This document shows, one piece after another, positions 2,879 through 60,075 of a DNA stretch of 64,000 nucleotides (its first letter is position 1; the number at the start of each line of letters is the position of its first letter). The stretch covers positions 2,471,001 through 2,535,000 of the forward strand of contig JBAIAA010000409.1 of the NCBI GenBank assembly GCA_037893245.1, given 5' to 3'. The notes beneath the pieces are model-generated. The model ran no database searches, had not been told where the DNA came from, and was given only the letters and a program-made list of their open reading frames with translations. Source of the stretch: Crossaster papposus. Taxonomy: Eukaryota; Echinodermata; Asteroidea; Velatida; Solasteridae. Both the position numbers and the translations under genes were made by a program.

Positions 2879-3548
2879 AATGCAACCCCTTTATTATAAC
2901 TTGTGCAGACCCACTGACAGTCTCTTATTACTAGTTTCCTTATTAGAGTGGTGTGTATTTATTGTGTAAGATTGTATTATTTATGAAATATGTGTTTTTT
3001 CAAAAATTGCCTTGCCTTGAAAGTCCACCCCCCCCCGCCCAAGGGACTAAACAAAAACAATACCAAAAGCAAAAGTCATTTAACAATTTAACACTGGTTT
3101 CCTTGACAACAATGTTCCTATGCAACCATCCTTGTTTTGGCCTTTATTAGCGTCTTCAGGCCGATAATCTCATTGGTGCTAGAATTCCGTCTCCATGACA
3201 ATCTGCTGTCTAGCGCTTAGTTCCCACGGTCAATACTTGGCGATGGGCCAAGAAGTTTAAGTTGTGGACGGCTGTTTACTGTGCAAGTAGTAGACCTAAA
3301 TGTGTTCGTCAATGTTCCTACATGGAGGTCTGCAAGCGCCGTCATCCCCGACGATTTAAGCTGCTTGTTTAAGTATTTTTAAAAATAACATTTAATTGAA
3401 TTGATATAAATCTCCCTAGGATTTTCTAATAGTTTACCTGTCCCAAAATTAATTTGCTTTAATTTATCAACTTGGAGAAGAAACTTCTGTACTGGAAGTT
3501 GTGCCACACAAACATTGCCCGTTAAAATTACTTGTGCGTCCCATATCT

Positions 3549-3653
3549 GCCGTTTTCCAAACCCCAACTTCGTCTCCACTGAGGCTTCGTTCCTGTAGTT
3601 TGGCAATAATGATGGAGCCCGCATAGGGCCTAGGCTGGGGTTTGGAAAACGGC
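3549..3653. repeat. Inverted-repeat element, copy 1
   Basis: Ends GCCGTTTTCCAAACCCC and GGGGTTTGGAAAACGGC; the interior has TTCGTCTCCACTGAGGCTTC. A related copy lies at 51513-51604. Confidence 0.6.
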
Positions 3654-4611
3654 CCGCGTGCTTTTAGTTCCGAGTTGTGCATGCGTGCGATCGCGAAGAA
3701 GATCGCTGGAAAGTTCGAATCGTGTAAATAGGCTGTTTCGTGTATAATATCGCGTAAAGTTTTTTCCTTTCGTTTAGCAGTTTAAAACATAAAGATGGAT
3801 AGAATATGCAAGATAAAGGTATCAGAGGAAATAAGAGATTCTAATCTTTGTTTAAATGATGCAAACTTTAAGAAACTTTGTGATTAATTTTGCAGTGTCT
3901 GTTCGTTAAAACAGAAAAAGGCCATGTATCAATTAGTCCCTTCGTGAAAACGAAAAACTCGATAGGGATACATTTTTCTTAATCCCCTAAAATAATCCCC
4001 CTTAAAAATAATAAATAATATCTCTTAACAATTTAAAACCAATGCCCTCTATTCGTGTTCGTGACATACATGCATGTTCTTTTAATGTCGCCAATAACCA
4101 GTTTGGTATGCTATTTGGTCAACTATTCTGTATTGTGTTCCCTAATATTTATAATAGTGAACCGGGCCCTCCAAATAACGAACACGATCGTTAACTTATA
4201 AATAATACTTGTACTTGGACCGTTTACAAAATCCCTGGCTTCGGCTCTGTATCAGGCTAAAGCCTATTGCTAAACTGCAGAACGAAGACAAAGCTGTTCA
4301 TGATCGTGATCCGGGGCCAGTATGCCAACCATTAAAATAGTTGCGGTTTTGCAAGTCGGTATTCTGCAGACTGACCGGCCATCGTCGTAACTATTCATAT
4401 TTAAATTAGCTCCCTAGCGCTCCAGCTGGCCCGGCGGGTCTGCAGAAGATCGGGTATATTCACGTTGTTTGTTATTTAAATGAAGCGTTCTGGCCCGTGC
4501 TAGGACGGGTAACTAAGGGCTCTTTTGTTTAAAAAGTCTGCAGGAGTCTGCAGAAAGAACGCAGCCGGCACGGCTAGTCAATTTCGGTAAGCCGCCTAAA
4601 CTACTGCTACC

Positions 4612-5036
4612 GGTAGATGATTTTGCAAGATTGAGGCTACTTGGGTTTTTATCCATATGAGGATTTTGGAGGATTGAAGTTATTTGTTACTTTGTATTTC
4701 AATTTGCTCATGCTCTATGAATATTCTCCAAAGAGCTTCAGTCAAGATGTATTAGTTATGTGTCAAGGATAGGAAACGTTTGCCTACCAATGGTCATGTG
4801 CGCAGACTCTTGTTGTAATATGGCACTTAGCAGCTGTTTGTTCCATGTTTGGCTGCTTTATAGCTCAATTGGTAAACCCACTGCAGGATTTTGCAGGATT
4901 CAGGCATTGGTCACCAATAAAAAAAAATATTAGAGAATTTTGCAGGATTCAGGTTACATGGATTCTTAACACTTTGAAAGTGCAGGATCGTGCAGGATTC
5001 AGGTTATGTGTAAGAAAAATAAGGTAGGGAGTTGGG
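4612..5036. mobile_element. Decayed piggyBac-related right end upstream of RUVBL1 exon
   Basis: Contains GGATTGAAGTTATTTGTTAC and repeated GCAGGATTCAGG motifs, and ends GTTGGGG followed by TTAA at 5037-5040. The left boundary is not visible. Confidence 0.5.
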
Positions 5037-5041
5037 GTTAA

Positions 5042-28800: not shown

Positions 28801-31800
28801 TCATTGCAGATGTTGGCCAGCATTGAGTCGGAGTACTTAGAGGCCACGTTGCTGAAGTCTTCGTAGGGCATGTCGTCGGCGTCTGCGTCAAACTCCAGCA
28901 GGGACTCCACCTCCTTCTTGGTCAGGTTCGTCTCGGGGTTCATCTCGTCAACGACACGGTCTGAAACCGTCATTCATCAAAACAAATGTGAATTCTAAGT
29001 TTAGTTTTTTTTGTTTTTATTTTATTTAACCAGTTCGCGCCGGGATTATTTTAACATCACCGAGCCAAGGGGCGCGATTATTTTTAACAAAACTTGATTC
29101 AAAGCGGGTTCAGGCCGATAGTGCCGGGAAGCACACCCACGCATTTCCGGCCTTGCTCGCTTCTGACAGACATTTCCGGCTATGCTCGTGGCGTGTTTAT
29201 GCGTCATACGTTTTGAATCTGGGTAAACTTTGGGTTTATATGAGTCATCCGGCGCAAACTGGTTAAGGGTAGTATATACCGGTACCATTTGCTTTTGCTG
29301 TAATTTAAAAAAAAAGGATGGGTTTAGGAAGGTTCATTTTAGTAAATATGGTAAAAAAAACAAGAAATTGAATGTCATTTTTGTAGTCTGGTTCCTTGAC
29401 TTCCTTCAGATGAAACAGAGCAGTTTATACATGTAGATGTCAGGGAATTATCAGAATAGGAAACCAGACTCCAATGTAGATGGCTTGCATCCATTCACGG
29501 ATGTGTAACAGTATTTGAAAAAATATGTGGACTAATTTATAATTATAAATACTAAATTGGGGGCAGTGTTTGAAAATAGTCGGGTTTTTCCAATAATTGC
29601 TGAATTATCTTTTGTTTTCAATTGTAGATTTTTTCAGAGCAGATCTTACTTCACCATGCCTTTGACGTTGCGTTCGAAACGTGAAAACTGATTTACCCCC
29701 TAAGTGATCGCGTGACCCCGCTTTTAATCTAAGATGGCGTTATCTGCAAATGGCTAGAATTTTCATCGGTTGACATATTTTTATTTTATTTTTATTTGTT
29801 TTTTTGGGGAGCGAGTTCATTTTTACCTGACATTCCTTTCTTTGAGATCTGCCTATCGTAGATCTTCTTCTCCAGCGTGTTGTCAGTCACCATCCGGTAG
29901 ATGTGGCATTTCTTTTTCTGGCCGTAGCGGTAGACGCGACAGACAGCCTGCGCATCGTGGCAGGGATTCCACGAGGCGTCCAAGACGATGACTCGATTGG
30001 CACCGATCAGGTTGATTCCGAGGCAGCCGGCCCTGTGTGTGTGTGTGTGCGAAAACAACAGGAGATTGTTTGTTGTGCATTGTAAGGGTTTAGGTACTTG
30101 TGATGGTTTGTACATGTACGTATATTGCAGGTCCAGTCGCAAGTCCAGTCGCGAGTCCAGTCGCGAGTCCAGTCGCGAGTCCAGTCGCGAGTCCAGTCGC
30201 GAGTCCAGTCGCGAGTCCAGTCGCGAGTCCAGTCGCGAGTCCAGTCGCGAGTCCAGTCGCGAGTCCAGTCGCGAGTCCAGTCGCGAGTCCAGTCGCGAGT
30301 CCAGTCGCGAGTCCAGTCGCGAGTCCAGTCGCGAGTCCAGTCGCGAGTCCAGTCGCGAGTCCAGTCGCGAGTCCAGTCGCGAGTCCAGTCGCGAGTCCAT
30401 TCGCGAGTCCAGTCGCGAGTCCAGTCGCAAGTCCAGTCGCGAGTCCAGTCGCGAGTCCAGTCGCGAGTCCAAGTAAATCATAGGTCCAGTCACAAGTAAA
30501 TCATAAGTCTACTCACAAGTTAAACACAAGTCCCGACCCAAGCAAATTTATCATACCGTGAATCCTCTACATGTACCAAAAAAACCGAGTATAAAGCTCA
30601 TACATTGTATTTGAGTGTTTGTCTAAAGCCCTGCCAAGATTTCTTATCTAAACTTTTAAAGGGGCACATTGCTTTTAAATCTCATAAAATGTTGCTGTTT
30701 GAAAATTGTCCTTATCCTTATAAGAGATGCTCATGCAACAAAACAACTATAATTTCTTGTAATTAGTGAGCAGTGATACAAAAATACAAAAAATGACCTT
30801 TGACCCGCGAAACATAGACGTACCGGTACATGTACAAGTATTTCCAACAGTAAATACGTACCACCGTCCAAATAATGCGCAACATGCACTGTATTTAGTC
30901 GCTAGGCTGGCGCCACAGCCAGTGACCTGGTAAACGCATCAGATGAACTTTAGGGGCACCATTCTCCACCTAGAGCGCAGCAAGGTCGAACATGCACACG
31001 CGCGTGTGCAAACGAACAAAATAGTAAGCGATAAGTTGCGTGACTTTTATAACTACATGTATTAGCGCAATAAGGCGCACGACTCTGTCGGGTAATGCAA
31101 ACGCGTTAATTTATTTATGCTGCGACTAGAAAAACAACTAGCAAAACACCTCCGCCATTTTCTGGAGTCCACAAATTTGGTTCTACAAAATGACGGACCG
31201 TTATTTGTCATGAAATTTTAAAAAAATTATGCAATTCTAAGCAGTTATTATCTTTATATTCTACTTAAAAAAGTAAATTCCCACCTATATCCATTTTATT
31301 TGTATAGCCAAAAATGCCCAATCCAAAGCAATGTACGCCTTTAATCTCTTTGGGGAAGTTTAAGAATGATGAAGAATGAAGAAAACAATTACTAAAGAAC
31401 TTGTGAGGCATGGCTATATTCTAAATGTAGATTTTTATAAATTTAACAGCTATATGTATTAAATGTAATTAAGAGTGTGTATCGGATCCGGGTACTTAAG
31501 TACCCGCCCGCTGATGTCAGGATCCAGTTTCCATAACCGGTTCCCAGATTTCCGGAACCGGTTTCCAGTTTCTCAACCAACTGGGCGATCTTGCCCTATG
31601 TTGGCGGTCTCTCAAATTAGCAGTATCTTTGTTCGAAGGAGCTAGTCAGAAGTGACAAACATCAGAATGCAGTGTGGCCAGGGATCACGCCCGACTTTAT
31701 CAGTTACATACTATGAATCCAGAGTGAGAGTTTCAACCTGGTTTGAAAATCTCAACCCTGGTTTCGGACAGGGTCGAGTTCAACCCAGGTTGAAATCAGT

Positions 31801-34800
31801 CTCAGGGTCATTGGTTGATAGGTTGACATTTTTGACAAGTGTGAAACGCTGCGTGTTTTTAACCCTGCGTCGACCCTGCGATTTGTTCCATGTGAAAAGG
31901 GCTCATGAAAATGCCTCCTTACCTTGTGGAAAGCAGGAAGAGCCAGAAGTGCTTGTTGTTTGCATGGTTGAATTGATTGATCATCTTCTCCCGATCAGAG
32001 GCCGGTGTGCTGCCATCCAGGCCTGAATCAAGAAACCAAATCAATTTCTTTTCATTTCGTATCAACCACAAGGGAAAATGACTAGGTGCAGTTAATACTA
32101 TTTTGAAAATTAAACACACAAATTGGCTGGAGCGGGACTCGAACCAGCGACCTCCGGATTGTCGTTCCGGTGCTCCACCGACTGAGCTATTCAGCCCTGT
32201 GTTGCCAGTTCCTCCAAAAACCAGAGCCCAAGGATGGCAATCAGGAGGTTGCTGGTTCAAGCCCCGCTCCAGTCAACTTCTTTGTTAAATTTTCGAATAT
32301 TCAAAAATTAAATTGGAAAAAAAGAGGGCGAGGGTCCTTTTTGTGTTTTTCTTAGTTTGGCTTGATGTTTATACATGTAATTAGGTTTGCAATGAATTTT
32401 TGCATTTCATTAAATAAAAAGATAAAATAATCACACGTAGAAAATTTAGTCAAGAACATTTTCAGTATGTTGAATACTTTTTGCAACCTACAACATTTTT
32501 CCATTTAATACACGATGCGCTATGCAAAGTTTTGTCAAAACGTCGTAACTCGTCGAGATACAATGTTTTTTTCATGAACATACAATGAGGCTCCTTTACA
32601 CATACATGTACCTTAGCGCGTAGAGCTAAAATCGGCTGAGATCAGAAAACATAATTACTGTATTCCTAAAAAACAGAATTTGATAGGATAGTATCAGGAT
32701 TGGATAGTATGCTTGTGTTTAGCTTGTTTAGGTTGAGGAGTTTGTTAATAATTTGCAGTAGCATCTTATTCAGTGTATGAATAGTCTTTAGTTTGATATT
32801 TTTGTTATTTTCCATTTACATGTACTTCATTTTTGTTTCTCGTATTTTCCACTAACTTATTTTTGTTATTACAAAATAACATATTTTTGTCCTATTGTCT
32901 CATTGTGCTCAATTAGTTTCAAGAAAATACCAAAATAAACTCAACTGGTACCACATACTGTACACAGTAGGTACAAGAACGGGAATTTCAATGACTTTTT
33001 GCACAAACATGATCGTATGGCATTCTGTGTAGGAACGTGCTGAGATACGACATTTTTTGCTATTAAAACACAATTGCTCGTAATCTAGATACGACCTTAT
33101 GGTTTGAATCAATTGAACTCTTGTGCAATAATGTATAGGTGAATCTTTATAACATTACGCAAAAAGCTAAATTTTGACAAATTTGGCATTTACAACGTTT
33201 TTTGCACTTTACACAACAATATGAGAATAAATAGACAAAAATAATCAGATTCGAGAGAAAATTTAATGAAAACAAATGCATGCATGTGCAATGGCTTGCA
33301 ATGAAATCATGCTTAATTTCTAAACACGTATTCATGTAGGTGATGTGTGGTCTAAACACGTACAGATGATTTTTATGGTCGAGGAGCATTGAAACCTGCA
33401 GCACCGAGTCTTTGGAACCATCTGTCACACTGTGTACGCAAAACTGACTCTCTCTTAATATTCAAGTTGTATCAAGTTTACAAGGTCACTTGAGATCCAG
33501 ATTGAGTTTTCTACTCACGGAAGTAGGTCTTATTCCGGACCCATTTCCCGTCAAAGTCTGGTGGGGGATCAGGCGGTTCCGGCATGGTCCTCTCAGCCAG
33601 GAACTTCTCAATCAGCGACAGCGTGCTCAGGCTCTGGCTAAAGACTAGCAGCCGGTCCCCAAGATGGATCGAGCTCTCCAGGATCTCAAAGAGCAGCATC
33701 ATCTTGCCGCCGTTGGACAGCTTGTTGGGCTGGTAGTTCTTCATGATGTCTCGCGCCTGAAAATATACAGGGTGGCCCCAAAAATGAACAAGCATACAGG
33801 TACCTCAACGGACGAGCATACTTCCACTACCCTGAGGCCAGAATTACCTATAACGATGGATGCAGAATCTTTCTCGAGGAAAAGTGATACCAAGATATCT
33901 CAATTTGGTCTAGTACCGGTAGTTTTAGCTCCAGATCCCATTTTTTTTAAAGCGAAGTCAGAGATCCTTTTGCACCAAGAGAAACCTAAACCACAGTTTA
34001 GTTTATAATTCTTGGTGTGAACGGACCTCCGACTGCTCTTCACAAAACAGGATTTAGGCTGTATGGCAATAATTTACCAGTAAATCTGTCAATTAATTAT
34101 AATAAGAAAGACTAGGCCACATATTTGCTTGAAGGCTCACCCATTCAAATGAGATGATCTGATTGACCTTCTCCTGATACGACTGCTCGACGGCCGGCCC
34201 CATGGCTATATCAGGCTCATCCTTCTTAGCATCGCTAGTTGGCTTGGCGGCAGCCTTCTTGACCGACTTGGAACCTTCTTTTTTGCCTTTCTTGGAACAC
34301 CTATCAGGAAAATATATTTCAAAGTCTTAAATTTATGCTTCAATTCCAAAACTGGAAGAAGTTTTTTGGACTGGAATAAAACATACGATTAGACTAAAGA
34401 GCTACATGCATAAATACATTTAGAAAATTCACTGCCAATCTTTTGGCAAAAAGTCCTTAACCCTAACGCTCCTCAATCCTCCAAAATCCTCGTTGCAGTT
34501 TTGGAAGATTTTTGAGGATTAAGGATGAATGGTATTTTTTTTTAATGAGGAGTTTGGAGGATTGAGGCACAATGTTGTTTAAAGTGTAAAGGATTTTTGA
34601 GGATTGAGGCTGAATGGGGTTTTCAAAAAATGATAATTTTGGAGAATTGACTTTTTTCAATACTCCAGAATCCTCATTGCAGTTTTAAAGAATTTTTGAG
34701 GATTGAGAATGAATGGTATTTCAAAAAAATGAGGATTGTTGAGAATTGTGGCACAATTAATGTTGTTTCAAGTGTGGAGGATTTTTGAGGATTGAGGCTA

Positions 34801-37800
34801 ATAGGGTAATTAAAAAATGAGGATTTTGAAGGATTGGGGACGGTTGCTAGCAAAAAGGGCATAGGGGGTTAGGGTTAACAAAAAATAACGTTGACAAAAG
34901 AGGACAATAGTGTGCACCAATGCCAGACGTCCACCATCGAGATAATAATTGTAAAGCGCTTTGACACACTACATTGTAGGGTTATAAAGCGCTTTATAAG
35001 CACCAACATTATTATAATTATCATTTATATGGAAAGTCTTCTGAATAAGTTAAAACAAAAGAGGGAAAATACAGGGCCCACGGTAAAGGTGCTTACGCAC
35101 GTGTGTGATTTTGTGGGTGTTCAGTCTTTGTAAATGCGTAAATGGCCACAAGTTAAGCAAATTAAGTTCAACCAGATGATGTTCATTTGTCGGTGAGTTG
35201 TTCTGGCAAAATGCGATGGAACTGGGCTCAGGGGCATAGTGGAGAAAACTGCAAAAAATGAATAACGGGGGAATTTTTGTATTTTCAGATTGATTGATAT
35301 TTATAATCTTTGGTATGACTACTAACTATATATTTTGTTAAGAAATAGTATGAAAGTAGTAGAATAAATGTGTTTTTGAGAAAAAACAGTTGGCATTTTC
35401 CATATCACATGTACAAAACTTTAAACTTTAAAGGCCTTTTTCTCAACATTTTACTTTTGCAACATGTTGATAAATGCAAACTTTACGCAGCCATAACTTG
35501 TTAATGAAATGTCCAATTGAAGTGCAAGAAACAGGATTGTAAGGAAAATGTTATCCTCTTTTCTAATACATGAGAACCCTCATTTCAACCTCTGCCCAGT
35601 TCCGTATCATTTTGCCAGAACCCCTCACATAAAGTAATACTTCACGTGGCACTGGAAAAGTGTTTAAAATTGGCTCCGGTGTTTTGTCATCCATTTAGAA
35701 CCGGCCAAGTGACCAACGGGAATGAGTAAACTGTCTAAGGTATGATAATATCAAGCAAATTGGTTGCATTATGCATGTCTGAACATAAAAGATGCTGGGT
35801 AATTATGCATACGACTTCGACCCATTGCATCCTTCAAAACTAACTGGCAATGTTTGCCATTCATCCTCAATCTTAAAAAAAAATGACGAGAATTTTGGAG
35901 GATTGAGAAAGTTTAAGCTTTCAGCTTTGTATACCCGTGATAAAGTTTGTAAATTTTGTGCCTAAACTTTAGTTCATATCCCGACCTTGCCGATGTTTCT
36001 GGAAGATCCAAGTCCGTATCCAAGTCGCCCATTTCGTCTCGTTTTAGAAAAACGTCGCAGAGGATATCCGGATGATTCCAAATCTAGGACGGGTACATGT
36101 AGGAAAAGACAGAAAGTTGAATATATCATGTCTTTGGTGCGTCGTGGAGGTCGCCATCTGTTTTCCGTACTGCGTTTTGTCGTCTTTTTCATTGTCATCG
36201 ATGTGCCCCAAAATGTCCCACCTAAAAAATGCAAAACCTGCCCTCTTTCTAGGGCATACCTGTTGATTTTTAGTGTCGCACGCTAGTCTAATAATTGTGC
36301 TGGGTGAGTAGTGGATTTTGCTACTCGCAAGAAGCCAAGTACAGTGGAACGCTGCTATACCGAACACAACTATACCGAACATTCGGCTATACCTAACACC
36401 ATTCTTGGCTCCTGAATTCTGTGTCCAAACATTGTTGTTAAAAATATGTTAACAGATTTTTTTTAAATCCACTGGTATATCAAACGCTATTTAGGCTGTG
36501 TCTTATTCCCGAACGTCAAACGGTCGGTGCTTTATGTTAAATAGTGACGGGTGACTATTATTTCTCAAATGAATAGAAGGGGCAAACAAACTTATGCTTT
36601 AGAATTGTGTGATGAATAAGAATTCAGTGTGATGAATAAAAGCGGGCATACTTGAAGTAGGCAACAAGAGGTGCTATTTAAAAAGGACAGATGTATCTTG
36701 AAAAATAGGCACTCGATGGACTGGCGGCTGAAGAAGAAGAAAACAAAAATCGCTATATCGAACAATCGATATACCGAACAAAATCTGTAGATCCCGTACT
36801 CACTGTACTCACTAGTAGTTTGTCACTAGATTTCTCATCAGAGCAGAAAGACTGACAACGTAAAGTGACAACCCATTATTCCGCAGTGAGATGTTTCTTT
36901 GCATTACTTGAAATTTTATTCTTGGGAGTGAAATCCTGGTGAGAGTGAAGTGGATCAAATGATTCCTTGAATGCTAGCTTCATTGAACAACATCCAGACA
37001 AAAGGCAACTTTAGTGCAGAAACAGTAGTTACTTTTGTCTAAATCAATGGCGTAAAAAAAAATTGCTACTCGCGAGTAACTGCTTTACTCGCACCTGGAT
37101 GAGTACCCGAGTAAATGAAAGTCACAAGTAATACAATGAGTAGCACAACCAGTCGAGTACTCGCGTTACTCGCCGAGCAGTATCCAATAACTTCAAGGTA
37201 GCTGTATTAAAGTACACAATCGCCATTGAAGGAATAATAGCCAGGCTCTCACCTTGCAGCCTACAGAGAACGCCTTGAGCGGATTGGCTGAGCACCATCC
37301 CCCAGCGCCCATCTCAGAGAAGGCCTGCATGAACCTGATGTACAGTCCCCGCTGGAAGGGGGTAAGGCGGACTAGGAGCACACTCTCCTCCTTGGGCGGC
37401 AGAGTGCTGTGAAGCACGGCGAAGCCTCGTCGCTGGACGAAACCTTCCAGGAGGCTGAACAGGACGTGGGCTCGGAACCGCATCAACTGCATGTCCTGTG
37501 GATGGACGAGGAAAATGGTGACGTACACGTTTATGTACAATCTTTGACACCAAATCCAGTGTTGTTTTAAAAAACTATAACTTGATCTACACTATGACCT
37601 GTTACCACAAAATGAGCTTAACCCTAAACCCAGCCAGACGCAGCGCAGTGCATCAGGTAAAACAGCCTAGTGCACCTCTATGCATTCAGCTGTCAACACC
37701 AGTGCGTAAACGACCACAGTGTATGGGAGCTAGTCCCCATTGAGCAATGCCACACTGAAGTTGCATTCTGCTGTGTTGGGTGACCACAGACTCTGAAGCA

Positions 37801-40800
37801 GTTTGACCTTGAGATTTCTGACCTGATAGATCTTGCTGCACTGGGCAGGTTGTTGTTACTTTGACAAATGATGCAGATTGCTGTATTTGGCAGGGTGCTC
37901 AAAGGTTAGGATTTAATAGTCTACTAGAGTACATGTAGTCCAACCATTCTGCGTTCGAGTGAGGTTAATAGTCGAACTATGGTTAACCATAGTTCGAGAC
38001 TGAACTTGCTTAATGATTGCTCCAGGCGTGCCAAATTAGACATACATGTACATTGGAAGGGCATTTAATGCTCACTATAAATGCCCACTATTATTATTAT
38101 TTGTACAGTTGCATTAAAGTTACATGTACATTGTACATGTACATTGTACATGTACATAATCATAGATACTGTACATTTATTGCAAAGCACTCAATGCTTT
38201 AATAGACAACATTTCAGCTATCAAATTGTTCAATGCGCATTTTAAATGTGAAATACAAATAAATGAACGGTCAAATAGTTGATTGTTTTCAAGGTTTCTG
38301 AAAGCATTGATATACACTACATGTACATCGGGTTTTGAAAATGTGACCTACCGGTACGCCATAAATGCAGGTAAAAAAATGTGATCAAAATATGACTGGC
38401 AATAAATTCATAGTGATGGTAAATGTACAGATGCCATTATTGCAATCTCATATTTTATGTCCTAAAATTCTGATTCTGGAGTTCTTAGTGTAATTATTGT
38501 GCATGGTAAAAAAAAAAACCAGAAAATGCATTGACACAATAGAAAAGCAATCTTATAAGAAATCCATGCAATTGACCTACATGTACTAAGAAATACTGTG
38601 TTTTTTAACTCCATGAGTAATCTTATAAGAATTGTGAACCATTTCTTACTTCCTGTATATTCTTAACCCTAACCCACTAGGCCCTTTTTACTAGCAACCG
38701 TCCTCAATCCTCCAAAATCCTCGGATTTCCCTACTTAAAAAAATGCATTCATCCTCAATCCTCAAAAATCCTCCAATTTTTTAACTTGTGTTCAAATCAA
38801 GAGGTACCCACTGCCTCAATCCTCCAAAATCCTTGGATTGCCCCACTAAAAAAATGCATTATCCTCAATCCTCAAAAATCCTCCAATTTTTTAACTTGTG
38901 TTTAAATCAAGAGGTACCCACTGCCTCAATCCTCCAAAATCCTTGGATTGCCCTACTGAAAAAAATGCATTCGTTTTAATTCTCAAAAATCCTCAATTTG
39001 TTTAATTTGTGTAAAATCAAGGGAGAATTACTGCCTCATTCCAATTAATTTGGCCAATGGATACCTAATTTTCAGTTGGGCAGAATTTTTCTTATGGTCG
39101 CGTAATATTCAGTGGGGGTCATTTTTTTACGAAAAATTATGAAATGCTCTTTCTCTTGCAATCTTTATCCAATCATTTTGCCAATGGTCACCTAATAATG
39201 GTCAGTTGGGGTCAGGATTTAGCCAATGGTCACTAAATGGTCACTAGGGGTAAACCCTTAGGCCCTTTTTGCTAGCAAAATCTTCGGATATTTCTTGCCC
39301 AAGTAAGGAGTGGGGGTGGGTCGAATTGTTTTTGCTGGCCAAGTTGGATGCTGGACAGAGTTTGTGGTGAGACTCGGCGGTTGGACTTGGCGATGGGTTG
39401 GGTACCGGTTGTTGTGTTGGGCATGGTGGGTGGTTACTCGGATGTTGAAGATGGGTTGGTGGAGGTTGTGGCTGTGCCACTCTCGTGGTTCTGCTTGTTG
39501 GCTGCATGGTAGCTGGTGAAGCACTTGCCTGGATGGAGATTCACCCCACAGACTACGCAGCCCTTCCTGGTTGTCCTGGTGCGACCTTTCTTGGTGACCC
39601 CATCATGCAGCCGACACCACTTGCACCATTTGGGATAGAGACCTGGCATTGTGTCGCAGAAGTGCCCATCAATGTTGTGGCTGGAGGTGGCCCTCGACCC
39701 TCTGAACTGTTGCATGGCCCCACCGTGGGCATAGCCATCAATCATCTCGGTGGCGAGGGTGACCACAAATGATGAATGGTTGAGGGATTTGGTGGGTTGA
39801 TCCCCCATGCTGTCGTCACTGCCACTGCCCGATGACTCACCGCTATGGTGATGCTGCTTATAGCAGATCCAGGCATTTACCCTAGCAACATCAAGTATAA
39901 AATATACCACCTTTTTCCACCAATACTGCGCCTTGCGACTACATGTGTGGTAGGCCCGCAGCTGGTCATTCCTGTCTACCCCTCCCATGAATTTGATGTA
40001 GTCACAGACCTGGGGTGGAGCAGGAATGACAGTGGACTTGAGAAGCCCGGTGGTTTCATCGGGAATTTTCCGTTTTACATGGTGGACAGCCGGATCCCGC
40101 CATCCCTGGTGGCCTGTTGACACCGTCAGCATACACTTGCTGTCTTTCCATATGGTCACTACAGCTTGGCCTTTCTGTCTGACATAAAAAGTCCCTTTGG
40201 GCACCTTTCTCATCTGGGTTATTCTTTCTCGCTGGGGATTTTCAGCCACGTTGAGGAGGTCTTTTGGGAGGCCTTTGCTGTTGGCTTTGACTGCACCTGT
40301 GAGATATATTTCAGATCGAATGAGTAGATCGGTTGCCAGGCTCACAGATGTGTACAGGCGGTCGGTGAAGAGGTGGTGATACTTTCCACAGTGGTGCTTT
40401 GTTATTGATTTCACCATCGCTGCCATGGTCGTTTTCTTGTGTGGATGAACTTTGAAGTTCACCATGAAGCCACTCCTTGCCTCTGTCATGGCATATACTT
40501 TGAAGCCAGCGCGGATAGGCTTCATTGGCATGAAGAATTTCTTGATGTTGGCCTTGAAGCCCCTGTACTTTATCATGGCTTCATCCACCGTGAGCTCCCG
40601 GCTGGTATTGAACTTTTCCATGCACCGCTTTCTCACCTCGTCCCACAATGGCTGAAGGGGGTAGACAGGGTGCTTTTTCATAAAGCTGTAGCGGTGAGCC
40701 TTGTCTTTGAGGTGTTGAGGGTCTTTGGCTGGGTCACTGCATGCCCAATACTGGTTGAGCACATCATACCGGTTTCTGGTCATGGTGGCACTGATGAGTC

Positions 40801-43800
40801 TGTTTTGTAAACCGGGATGAGTCGACCAGTAGTTCCTGTACTTTCCAATTTTGACGACTCCCATCAACAGATGGATCCCAATGAACGCCCGCATCTCAGC
40901 TAGGGAAGTAAGCTTTTGCCTAGCAAGATGAAGCTTGGCGTTTGTCCATTCGGCCATCCGGGACAGGAGTACCAAAGGAAAAAAACGAACAAAGTAGTAC
41001 ATTGGAGATGTACTCTGGTGGAAGGTTGGACCAGGTGGTTTTGTCCCTTTAAACCGATGAATGGGGACGTCAGTCAGCTTTCTTGTCCATCCATCCTTGT
41101 CTTCAGGGAAGTCTGGCTGGTAGACGGATGGAGGGTCTGGGTCGTCGTCAGACTTCGGTTGTTGGATTTTTGTTTTTTTTCTTGGTTTGGTAGACTTTGT
41201 AATCTTCCTTGGGAGTGGGGGCTCTGGGATATCACTGACTTCCTCCTCATCCTCCTCATCCTCCTCTTCCTCCTCTTCCCCATCCTCCTCCTGCTCATCC
41301 TCCTGCTCTTCCTCCTCCTCCTCATCATCTTCATTCTTTTCATCATTATCGCTTGTATATTCCATGCATGACTCCTCTGCTGCTTTGGTAGCATCTGCTG
41401 CTTTGGCAGCATCAACTGCATCGTCAAGGAATTCCTCCTCACTTTCGGAGCAGCTCTGCACCACAGCTCGGTAGTGTCGACGGGACAGTGCGACACCAGC
41501 ATCTCTGGCGCTTGCCCGAAGTGTAGCCCGCAGCTCCGCTTCTTCCTCTGCAGCTGTTCGTCTTCTCTTCTTCTTTTGTAGAGGAGCTTTTCCTTTTCCA
41601 GCTTTGCCCTGAATATTTTTCTTCTCCTTCTCCTTCTCCTTCTCCTCGTCCTCGTCCTCGTCCTCCTCCTCCTCCTCATCAGTGCTAGTAACCAAAAGCC
41701 CCTTTTTCTTCTCCCTCCTCCTTTTTTTCTCCTTCCTCCCCTCCTCTTCTACATCAGAAACTCTGGTGTGAATCTGCTCCTTTCTCTTCTTCTTATTTCT
41801 CCTCCTTTCCCTTCTCCTCTTCATCTTCTCCTTTCTCATCTTCTCTCCTTCCTCATCAGAGTTGCTAAGGCTGAAGTCATCATCAGAGCTGCTGATCTGA
41901 AGCTTCTCCTTTCTCTTCTTTTCTTTCCTTATCTTCACCTCTTCCTCAGATGTACTCGGCAGAAACATCTTTTTCTTCTTCTTTATCTTCTGCTTTTCCT
42001 TGTATTTTTCTCCTTCCTCCTCACAGCTTGACACCAATACCTTTTTCTTCTTTCTTTTGCGGTTATCCCCCATGACGGAAGACAGAAACAGAATTCCCTC
42101 CTCTCTAGACAAAGAACTCTGTAGTGACTGTACAACTTTACTCAAAGATGTTCAAATATGAACTGGGGAGAGTAGTAAATTTTAAGCGTATTTATAGGAA
42201 AACTGGAAGATAAGTATTCAAGTATTACATAATTTTAAGACTTACCTTTTGATGAATGTTTAAATGAAATTCAATAATCTATTGATAACATAATTTGTTT
42301 CACAAAAGATGCATTGTCTTGAAAACGTACTTACCTTGGTGTAAATGGAATGTTCCACAAGTTTTGGAAAAATACACAAAGTAAAAATGAAGCCCAGACT
42401 TCAGATGATCTAGATCACAGCCCTTCCCCATAAGTCAGAGACCCAGAAACCAACTGGTGTTGTTGAATAAGACAAGGCAATAGCATGATTGATTACTTGG
42501 CAGGTAAAATCCTGACCACTCTTTATGTACACAATGTAATGGGATACTCATGGGGCAGCCTTTGCTTTGAACAATGGACTGTGTGTCCTTTGAGCAATAC
42601 ACTTGGTTCATGTAAAGTGCACAGCATATAATTAGTGTACTATTATAAACTGTTTCATGTCCTTATACCTTTGTATACAAAACAAATTAATTTGTAGATC
42701 CATACCAGTAACCTACATGTACATGTACTACCCGGGCCCAAGTCAAACCAATCTCCCAATGCATTCTTAGGCCGAATGACCATACAATCCTCCAAACTCC
42801 TCATTTTTTGAAAACCCCATTCAGCCTCAATCCTCAAAAATCCTTATTTTGTTAAAACCCCATTCAGCCTCAATCCTCAAAAATCCTCATTTTTTAAAAA
42901 ACCCATTCAGCCTCAATCCTCAAAAATCCTCATTTTTTAAAAACCCCATTAATAACATTGTGCCTCAATCCTCCAAAATCCTCATTTTTTTAAAACCCCA
43001 TACAGCCTCAATCCTCAAAAATCCTCCAAAACTGCAATGAGGATTTTTGAGGATTGAGGAGCGTTAGGGTTAAAAGAATCTTGTCAAATTCAACTCGCTT
43101 TTCTTACTGTTTCTTACTTGCTGTGGATTCTTATAAGATTCTTATATTATTCAGACCATATATACGATTCTTATAAGAATCTTATAAGAATCTTACAAGA
43201 TCTTATAAGTTGAAATTTTGTGGCGACAGGTCACATATTGATTATACATCTTCCCGACACAAAATTACACTTTACGGACTTTACCTTGTGCGTGCTGTCA
43301 ATGCACTGACCATTCAGGATGGGCCTCTCAAAGAGGTTGGCAAACTCATGCCGGGTACCGAGGAAGTTAGGTCGGACAAAGTCCACCATGCACCAGTACT
43401 CCTGCAGGTTGTTCTGCAGCGGGTAACCGGTCAAAACCACTCGTCGCCTGAGGTAAAATATTTTTGACAATTTTAAATGTTGCCTTATTTCTTGCACATG
43501 TTCAAAAGAAAGGCAGGCAACTTTTTTTGGAATAACAAAAATAATACAAAAAACACTATGAAATTGCAAGCGCAGTGTTTTGTTTTTAATGGCGTTTAGG
43601 ATACACCATTTGCAGATATCGAAAAATTTTACTAACAAGTTAATGAGAAATATTTTACTTATTTGAAAGTAAATAATGATTCTGGGCATCCAGCAAAATG
43701 ATTGCGCTAGATATCATGTAATTGTTACGAAAAATTTAATTAAACAAAACAAAGTTACCATTGCCAGACAACTGCCCGACGCCGGTTGAATAACAGTCGG

Positions 43801-46800
43801 CATTTTGTGCTATAAATGTGTCGCATTAAAAAAAACCAAAAAAAACAGCCATACCTTGTCCTGATGTTCTTGAGCGCTTTTGAGATCCCCGCTTGAATGT
43901 TCTTGATCCGGTGGCCCTCGTCACAGACCACTAGGTCCGGCCCCGGCCTGCACAGTGCCTTGTAAAACCCTTCCGCCATCATGGAAATCTTGTCTTCTTC
44001 CTCCAGGTCGATTATCTCCGGCTCGTCGACGATGGCGGCGTCTGACGCCTTTTTCTTCCTCTTCTTCTTCTTTTTTCGGTTGGTGAGGTGTTTGAATAAA
44101 GAGGAGGTGGGGGTGGCGGATACGGCAGAGGCCCCCCGGATGCTCAAGAGACGGTACATCTCATAGCCCATCAAGAGCACGCCGCCAGTCTTGTACCAGG
44201 TGGCTGGGATGAATTCCACAAAAAAAAAGGTTAACAGGTTTCACTATTACGGATTGCTGAGAAAGTAGAGTACCGTGTCCGGGTTCGAGTCTGGCCTGGG
44301 ACTACGGTGCATGTGCATTACGGTGCACTTCTCCCTACCCAGGAGTAAAATGGGTACCTGTGATGGTTATTGTAGTCGATTTAGCTGCTTTGCGCAGAAA
44401 TGGCAGCATTGAGCTGTTTACTCCAAAGGGAGCTGAGATGGTATTTGGAATGTTTCGTGGGCCCAATGACCAGAGTAATATTGTAAAGCGCTTTGATACC
44501 GGTGGCGATATAAACACCACAAATTATTATTATTATGTAATAATTTTTGTCAATCACACTAGGAAAGGGCATGATGTGATTTTGCATTCAAAATGGACCA
44601 GTCATTAGCAGGATGTAAATTCAACAGATTTTCCAAAATCATACTCCACAAATTCACATCCTTTTCTTCCAAATTTACATTCTTGAATAAAGTCTTAAAA
44701 ATCCAAATTCACATCGAGTTTTCGCACCTTTCAAAAATCTGGTAATAAGTTGTAAAATCCAACTTCAAATCCTATATTACATGTACGATTGAGGTGAGAA
44801 AACAGGATGTGAATTTGGATTTTTACGACTTAATTCACGATGTGAATTTGGAAGAGGATGTGAATTTGGAAGAGGATGTGAATTTGGAAGAGGATGTGAA
44901 TTTGGAAGAGGATGTGAATTTGGAAGAGAATTTGAATTTGGAGCATTTTGGTGTGATTTAAAACCACATCCTGCTGATGATCATGTCTGCAAAATCACAT
45001 CATGCCCTTTCCTAGTGTCCTGTGTATGACAAACTGTGCCCCAGGGGTTGGGGAGGTTAGAACACCCCAAATCTGTTTGATTCTCCTGAAGATTTGTCCC
45101 TTTCAAATGACATTTGCACCCTCGGGCAATCTTTTTTCAATGAACTATGTGTATGTTCACCCGATCGTTTTGAATTTTCAACAGTAAGTTTTCTGAAAAA
45201 AATGCGACTTCCTCAAAATCCGATTGTCCCAGTTGCGATCACACATGGGCACTTTTTATGTTCCTTTTTATGTTTTCGGGTTAAGTTTGTCTCTGAACTG
45301 TCGCCGTAGTCATTTTTTCCCACAATTTACCCTCAACAAATCTAAAACCTGCCCTATTTCCAGAAAGTTAATCCTTCTTTCAACTACAAAAAAACAACTG
45401 AGTTGTGACAATTTGAAAATACTGAAAACTCTGTTTAACTCCTGTACCCTAATCCTGCCAAATGCAGTGCAGTGCATCAGGTAAAAAAAATCTGGTGCTC
45501 TTTGATGCATTCAGCAGTCAACACCAGTGCATAAACAACCACAGTCTAACGCTCGGTTTAGACAGGCGTTCCACAGTCTCGCCGAACCAAATTGAAATCA
45601 AGTCGCTCCTGACTCGCTCCCGAGTCGCTCTAACAACTCCAGCAGTCGATCGTTTGCCGTCTGGCGCGCCTTGTCACCCTTATTCGTTTCAGACGTCTGA
45701 CTAAATTCACTCATTTGGTTCGGCGCGACTGTGGAACGTCTGTCTGAACCGAGCGTAAGATTATTAAGAGCTAGTCCTCATTGAACAATGCCAGAGATGG
45801 ATTCTACTTTGTTGAGTGACCACAGACTCTGAGACAGTTTAGCCTCGACATTTTTGACCTCGTGGAACTTGCTGCACTGGGCAGGGTTGTCACTTTGACA
45901 AATGATGCATGTTGCTGCATCTGGCAGGGTTTCTAGCCAAAATACCCTGGAGGGTTAGAGTTAACTTACTGATAACCTGATGTCGCGCAGCCATGTTCCT
46001 GTACATGTCGTTCATGACGTAGAGCGGAAACTGCCGGTACACAGTGTCCTCGGGGAAGTCTCCCCCGTCAACCTTCGTCTCCGATTGCGGCGAGGAGGAC
46101 GACGCCTGACCGTCGCAGGACGACATCGATGCGTCTCCGTTCCCTAGCAACCACTCCATTGTAGGAGTCGATGTACCAGTCCCTCCCCGACTGTCACAGT
46201 CTCCCCGCAGCGACGTACTCCCTTCCGACTCGGCGTTATTCAGCAGTTTCGTTTCATTGTCTGTCGTGCCCGCTTTAGCCTTTCTGGCAGAGCCCTTCTT
46301 TTTGTTCTGAGTTTCGTCCTCTGTCAGGACACCATTTGACCGACGTTCCGGCAACCAAATGCAGAACTCCGCCACCCAGTTTTGAATCGTGTTGATGGGG
46401 ACAATGCAGAGAACCTTCAGAAAAGAGGAAAATTCATTTCTATAAATCAAAATGACTGTGTTGAAATTGTTTCAACCCAAAAAGATTTCCAAATCCTCCA
46501 ACAAGGGATCTGCGGATCGCGAGTGTAGCCTCTTCCAGGGGTTGATCCCCATGTTTCGTGTTCTTTATTAACCCTAACTCAGGCCTCAAAGTTCCCGGCG
46601 GCCACGACGGCCATGGCCGCCGGTGCCCTTCATACTGGCCGTGGTGCCTCGAGAAAATCTGACATTTTTACGGCCAAAAATGCCTTGCCCTTTTTCTCCG
46701 ATGGCCGCCGTGCCCTTTTTGAGATCAAAATTAATGTTTTTATGTCGGCGATAAATGGCACACGGCGGTCGCCGGGACGGAGTATTTTGTGTGCAAATAA

Positions 46801-59621: not shown

Positions 59622-60075
59622 CACTAAACCCCCAAGGCCCATTTTTGCTACATGTAGCAACCATCCTCAGTCCTCAAAAATCCTCTAATTGTTTAACTTA
59701 CATGTATTTTCAAATCGAAGGGTATCCACTGCCTCAATCCTACCTCGGATTGCCATAATATTAAAAAAATGCATTCATCCTCAATGCTAAACAATCCTCC
59801 ATTTTTTAAAACTTCAAATTGAAGGGTACTCACTGCCTTAATCCTTCAAAATCCTCAAAGATTTTGCAGGATGAGGGCACTTGGAAGTTGATGCATCAGA
59901 AGAATTTGAAGGATTGAAGGCGTATGGGGCTTTGCCACTGGAAGATAATGAAGGATCCAGGCCATAAAGCCTAAAACTAATGCTGGATGATTTTGCAGGA
60001 TTGAGGTTACTTGGGTATTTATCCAAATGAGAATTTTGGAGGATTGAGGTTATTTGTTACTTTGCACTTTCACAC
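59622..60075. mobile_element. Decayed piggyBac-related element next to RAD54L2 exon 1
   Basis: TTAA at 59618-59621 is followed by a diverged terminus (CACTAAACCCCCAAGGCCC). CCTCAATCC-type repeats and the AAAAAAATGCATTCATCC spacer are shared with 38697-38900. The 3' half (GGATTGAGGTTACTTGGGTA) matches 4630-4690. The right boundary is approximate. Confidence 0.65.

Follow-up and report, generated by a model that had tools for sequence, protein, structure and literature searches.

A TTAA target-site duplication marks the piggyBac superfamily, and its inverted tips, usually 12–19 bp long, carry the motif CC(C/T)T (PMC2872659); tip lengths of 4–24 bp are given in PMC10813416, which records intact copies in several phyla of invertebrates, with sea urchins among the hosts. 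The transposase of piggyBac has aspartates D268, D346 and D447 (and D450), with roles described in PMC2533014; for piggyBat, transposition is held back by a third binding site in the subterminal region, an effect that the authors suggest is possibly widespread in transposons with such arrays (PMC11707139). Here a 4403-bp element of this kind is described from the sea star Crossaster papposus (GenBank assembly GCA_037893245.1, contig JBAIAA010000409.1); the window is the 64,000-nucleotide stretch at positions 2,471,001 to 2,535,000 of the forward strand, and positions below are those of the window unless a contig is named. No paper naming the element was found in a literature search; it may be listed in Repbase or elsewhere.

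The element is read with high confidence as an autonomous-looking cut-and-paste transposon of the piggyBac superfamily, inserted recently into an intron, at a TTAA within an interspersed repeat. Ends: the TTAA duplications, the CCCTAAC/GTTAGGG termini and the subterminal repeats, described as intact in an original prediction made from the letters alone, were confirmed in their coordinates and array periods. TTAA duplications flank the element and a second complete copy alike; the CCCT within the tips agrees with the superfamily motif; the exact inverted tip is 7 bp, inside the published range, and beyond it the two ends diverge (CCCTAACCCACTAGG versus CCCTAACGCTCC). The pattern TTAACCCTAAC at ≤1 mismatch had 11 occurrences in the window, where shuffles give an expectation of 1.73, and 0 of 100 shuffles reached 11; four of its five exact matches are the ends of the 4403-bp element and of a 414-bp relative, the fifth, at 46568, being unpaired. 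TTAA plus left tip (TTAACCCTAACCC, 38663–38675) looks like telomeric TTAGGG repeats, a likeness that was given no weight; CCCTAAC is common to loci of three subfamilies, so that short telomere-like matches in the genome may be transposon ends.

Transposase: a single open frame (39434–42145, minus strand) runs without stop or frameshift. The earlier count of 903 codons includes a TTG start; 879 amino acids remain from the first ATG (42073), and a 25-bp insertion of the sibling copy lies upstream of this ATG, which suits it as the true start. Residues 380–759 matched DDE_Tnp_1_7 (Pfam) over the full profile, positions 1–349 of 349 (E 3.1e-62; 211 bits, cut-off 22.4), and a PDB sequence search gave piggyBac 6x67 as the best match (E 3.8e-24) and piggyBat 9c0f (E 2e-22). 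The three aspartates that had been called correctly placed, D521, D595 and D724, align with those of piggyBac, as does a fourth conserved one, D727; the first, third and fourth are invariant across 12 aligned sequences of the genome (the window's included), and the second is Asn in two of these rows (L023 and L067). The tail contains 5 Cys (C841, C844, C863, C866, C875) and 4 His (H847, H871, H880, H887) and aligned weakly (6.8 bits) with that of piggyBat. The charged N-terminal tract is unequal in length between the two complete copies. No relative was confirmed in viral contigs (600 stretches fit the peptide pattern, 0 by tblastn), and the phage records searched gave no match.

Copies and recency: the search covered the 1.02-Gb genome that contains the window; 106 matches were obtained, 40 of 2841 candidates being scored, so that the counts are lower bounds. 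A complete, probably recent element had been proposed and near-identical copies with TTAA flanks suggested as the check; one such complete copy was found (C845:898552–903147, 4596 bp); it lies at a separate TTAA, and its tips are intact. The two copies differ by Kimura two-parameter distances (K2P) of 0.0066 (left noncoding), 0.0081 (right noncoding), 0.0083 (residues 340–903) and 0.0161 (N-terminal tract, residues 25–339), thus 0.007–0.008 outside that tract, which upholds recency; the 96–97% identity given by the genome search underrates the likeness because of indels in the charged tract. The indels of C845 relative to the window copy are +9, +162 and −1 bp in coding sequence and +25 and −2 bp outside it. 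Other copies are broken: C184 is interrupted by stops and is missing its left end, and C669 (90%), C217 (86–92%) and C656 (81%) are broken as well. Two 215-bp right-end fragments (L034 and L035 on C1399 and C911; 99% identical to the element, left side cut) were rejected as separate copies, because their surroundings are alike as well, with 1 mismatch and 2 gap openings over 4323 aligned bases; either a single locus was assembled twice or it was duplicated recently. On C725 (633801–945433) six places within about 312 kb match both the left and the right end of the family, possibly as a duplicated larger unit.

Insertion site: the element lies within an interspersed repeat, two paralogous copies of which are without it. 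Repeat copy C617 (L050) aligns across the junction with 472 of 580 columns identical and has one copy of the 4-bp site, reading TTAT; C306 is also element-free, with about 77 bp beside the site missing. Both junctions are paralogous sites, not alleles, and no allelic contig occurred among the scored matches of either flank (40 candidates scored each).

Subfamilies: twenty loci were compared. Subfamily B is 51–56% identical in protein to the conserved part of the window element (subfamily A); its 12 copies are mutually 96.2–99.6% identical, and 10 of them are stop-free in the matched part. In 7 of the 12 B copies a right tip could be identified, every one at TTAA with flanks differing by eye, and L018 has both ends; L023 is 84–85% identical to B, and L025–L027 constitute a third group (72–99% among themselves). 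Twelve pairs were taken for the ratio of non-synonymous to synonymous rates (dN/dS): 0.12–0.58 for ten (one involving L024) and 0.98 for L019–L024; the values with L024 (0.47 and 0.98) are distrusted because of a 1-bp insertion and a 4-bp deletion there, and A versus B was not computable. Subfamily B has more young copies than that of the window element; young copies in both mean that recent insertions in this genome come from at least two piggyBac lineages. The sister-subfamily transposases carry a (KKS)n tract after the Cys/His tail, coded by 9-bp repeats, long in L013 (ca. 999–1540) and L016 (ca. 3490–4340) and short in L014 and L020; the window's subfamily varies in the charged N-terminal tract instead.

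Table 1. Positions of the element, its parts, its short relatives and the neighbouring exons in the window
Feature	Positions	Strand	Remarks
Structurally complete piggyBac element	38667..43069	-	4403 bp; transposase on minus strand
Left TTAA target-site duplication	38663..38666	.	
Right TTAA target-site duplication	43070..43073	.	
Left tip	38667..38673	+	CCCTAAC
Right tip	43063..43069	+	GTTAGGG, inverse of left tip
Left subterminal array	38702..39021	+	AATCCTC(A/C)AAAATCCTC; steps 51/61/49/61 bp
Right subterminal array	42785..43026	+	AATCCTC(A/C)AAAATCCTC; steps 43/43/43/52/43 bp
Transposase gene	39434..42073	-	879 aa from first ATG (42073)
Conserved transposase part	39437..41128	-	residues 340-903 (903-codon numbering); aspartates and Cys/His-rich tail
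Charged N-terminal tract	41129..42073	-	315 residues; 26% K+R, 30% D+E
Short non-autonomous relative	34461..34874	-	414 bp; TTAA 34457-34460 and 34875-34878; both 7-bp tips exact
Decayed short relative	59622..60049	+	left tip altered; no right end identified
Decayed short relative	4616..5037	-	left end like that of L018 (by eye); no right end identified
SNF2-family exon upstream of intron	43285..43470	-	boundaries approximate, not from splice sites
SNF2-like exon downstream of intron	37325..37490	-	Pfam below cut-off; boundaries approximate

Several results weigh against a recent, autonomous-looking element. The 7-bp tip is shorter than usual (12–19 bp; PMC2872659); structure prediction was poor (mean pLDDT 44, AlphaFold on 12 rows); in C845, the complete copy closest to the window's, the 1-bp deletion shifts the frame within the N-terminal tract and leaves the first Met of the catalytic-part frame 183 residues in; the dN/dS of 0.21 between the window copy and C845 over residues 340–903 (8 synonymous and 6 non-synonymous changes) counts in favour of the element but depends on 14 differences; the remaining copies >1 kb are truncated or have stops, so that one full-frame copy, the window's, was seen; and in subfamily B two of the 12 copies have stops and a third, L024, has the indels given above.

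The rival that survives best is a recent insertion that is already dead, its ends and frame intact for lack of time and its protein carrying a disabling change. The frameshifted sibling and the single full frame seen in the subfamily agree with it, and the aspartates and conserved columns, which match those of the relatives, and the frame free of stops and frameshifts speak against it; we put this rival a little short of an even chance. That the window copy still encodes a working transposase is, as judged from its sequence, about evenly balanced. Among the copies of its subfamily seen, only the window copy has a full frame together with both ends; the near-identical sibling points to recent movement of the family, which may still be capable of it. 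The preferred reading is an autonomous-looking element: an ordinary piggyBac element of an already known kind, unusually well preserved.

Short relatives: tips with TTAA were found in the genome at ≤2 mismatches 585 times (right) and 568 times (left), with 0 hits for each of the reversed patterns; 21 tip pairs, matched by eye among 100 places listed per tip, enclose 259–481 bp. These tips could be taken as a burst of short copies presently mobilised by the window element, and the counts, set against the empty reversed patterns, are in its favour; the few short copies examined, however, have diverged further than the two complete copies, and no relative scored (40 of 1164 candidates) exceeds 91% identity to the window's 414-bp copy. 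Nine short copies of equal score suggested a young burst, a reading that was also rejected, as the two compared (L072 on C164 and L073 on C78) are identical including 20-bp flanks; here a short relative was probably amplified inside a larger interspersed repeat. A present burst is judged improbable. Old copies in the window had been called heavily decayed; two of the relatives there are decayed, but not the 414-bp copy, with its TTAA on both sides and exact tips. Short copies whose ends match could have been mobilised by this transposase or its ancestors.

A domesticated piggyBac-derived host gene (as are PGBD1-5) that happens to retain transposon ends, which together with a lack of other copies had been named as what would overturn the original prediction, can hardly be maintained: the frame is long and open and dN/dS between the two complete copies is below 1, but a low ratio is equally expected for a transposase inherited via active ancestors, the sequence is multicopy and its ends are not lost (at least eight matches >1 kb at six different places, window included, among 40 of 2841 candidates scored; one other copy with both tips intact), and the paralogous junctions are element-free.

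Subterminal arrays of the transposon: the array periods are 110 bp (×2.9) on the left and 43 bp (×5.4) on the right, one motif underlying both, and an additional inverted motif copy (43039–43060) adjoins the right tip. For the comparison between subfamilies AATCC and TCCT were preset in the motif search, and the copies compared are non-independent. Units of A (L009 and L010 in; L011 and L012 out) read AATCCTC(A/C)AAAATCCTC, the seventh base being C in 22 of 22; units of B (10 of 12 loci in; L019 and L021 out) read AATCCTGCAAAATCCTG, with G at the seventh base in 62 of 78. Right-end steps are 43 bp in A (one of 52) and 42–47 bp in B, or 87–90 where one unit is unmatched; at the left end the initial step is 51 bp in both A loci, and in B the 51-bp step occurs in 4 of 10, with 99 in one and no units in the available stretch of five. 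The third group (L025–L027) showed neither array motif by a weaker motif scan. We tentatively suggest that A and B changed the array motif together with their transposases and kept the geometry (ca. 43-bp right steps, first left step of 51 bp); with similar reserve, the arrays may be transposase-binding platforms under selection for spacing. If so, A and B together form a natural experiment that bears on whether arrays promote transposition or restrain it, the latter as reported for piggyBat. The pair of subfamilies with changed motifs and kept spacing is the mildly novel aspect of the present element.

Host gene: same-strand frames on both sides of the element carry SNF2 motifs, which places it in an intron (ca. 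37490–43285) of a Rad54/ATRX-type gene. One of four frames with SNF2 matches exceeded the Pfam cut-off (43234–43713; 46.8 bits against 24.9); the other three gave 15.9–19.7 bits, the exon across the intron being at 19.7 bits (E 5e-4), and a fifth frame matched Helicase_C (24.1 bits, cut-off 23.5). In the PDB, 43234–43713 came closest to ATRX (E 5e-16), followed by a RAD54-like protein (E 6e-10). The predicted location in an intron was borne out for a gene of the SNF2 Rad54/ATRX kind; RAD54L2, the name first proposed, is a fair one from the sequence, not separated from ATRX, the best PDB match. A tandem repeat reading (DSRL)n in one frame was observed at ca. 30120–30470, directly upstream, in gene direction, of the Helicase_C exon.

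On the analogy of known piggyBac biochemistry, the transposase would dimerise, and its Cys/His-rich tail would bind the repeated subterminal motifs; the aspartates would cut the tips via hairpin intermediates, leaving TTAA overhangs; the donor gap would be resealed footprint-free and the element would join a new TTAA. To our knowledge, activity has been demonstrated for few piggyBac elements. With its ends, frame and aspartates intact and a near-identical sibling, the element may reasonably be put forward as a candidate new active piggyBac and could possibly become a genetic tool for marine invertebrates, and the subfamily pair with equal array spacing and different motifs would offer a direct test of how a transposase reads its ends.

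Observations on the assembly: COX1 on the mitochondrial contig C1841 (16,330 bp) is stop-free under tables 4, 5, 9, 13 and 14 and has 7 stops under table 2; tables 9 and 14 yield an identical protein, with residues that we take to be conserved (AAA Asn, ATA Ile, AGA Ser). Echinoderms and flatworms have table 9 in common, and the protein has an echinoderm-like look. COX1 matches, stop-free in the standard code, also occur on C8 (>5.2 Mb) at 5208663–5210009 and 2872001–2873343; this contig is possibly a bacterial chromosome that entered the host assembly.

Like the present element, piggyBac of Trichoplusia ni has tips that start with CCC. Shared with it (PDB 6x67/6x68) are also the TTAA target, the DDD residues and the second D of GGVDxxD; in contrast, the window protein is longer (879 aa versus a chain of 594 residues) and has an N-terminal charged tract of 315 residues, and the element has subterminal arrays (5 units left, 6 right). 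The tail, with 5 Cys and His, differs from the eight cysteines that PMC10813416 reports in seven clades. Intact TTAA elements of the sea urchin Lytechinus in the same source (4.65–5.97 kb, tips of 5–16 bp) are similar, and their transposases, compared by description only, are unlike the window's in length (559–614 aa). Coral MITEs (short TTAA copies) share tips with an autonomous piggyBac partner, AmiPB1, which is similar to the situation here; their tip CCCTTTCCCGTCC and host differ (PMC2872659). Myotis lucifugus piggyBat (PDB 9c0f) aligns in one stretch with window residues 414–764 and, according to PMC11707139, likewise has asymmetric ends and repeated binding sites, those of the window element being putative; its tail has Cys3His1 and Cys2His2 zinc sites, which in number would fit the 5 Cys and 4 His of the window protein, whereas the window motif is different and its arrays are present at both ends.

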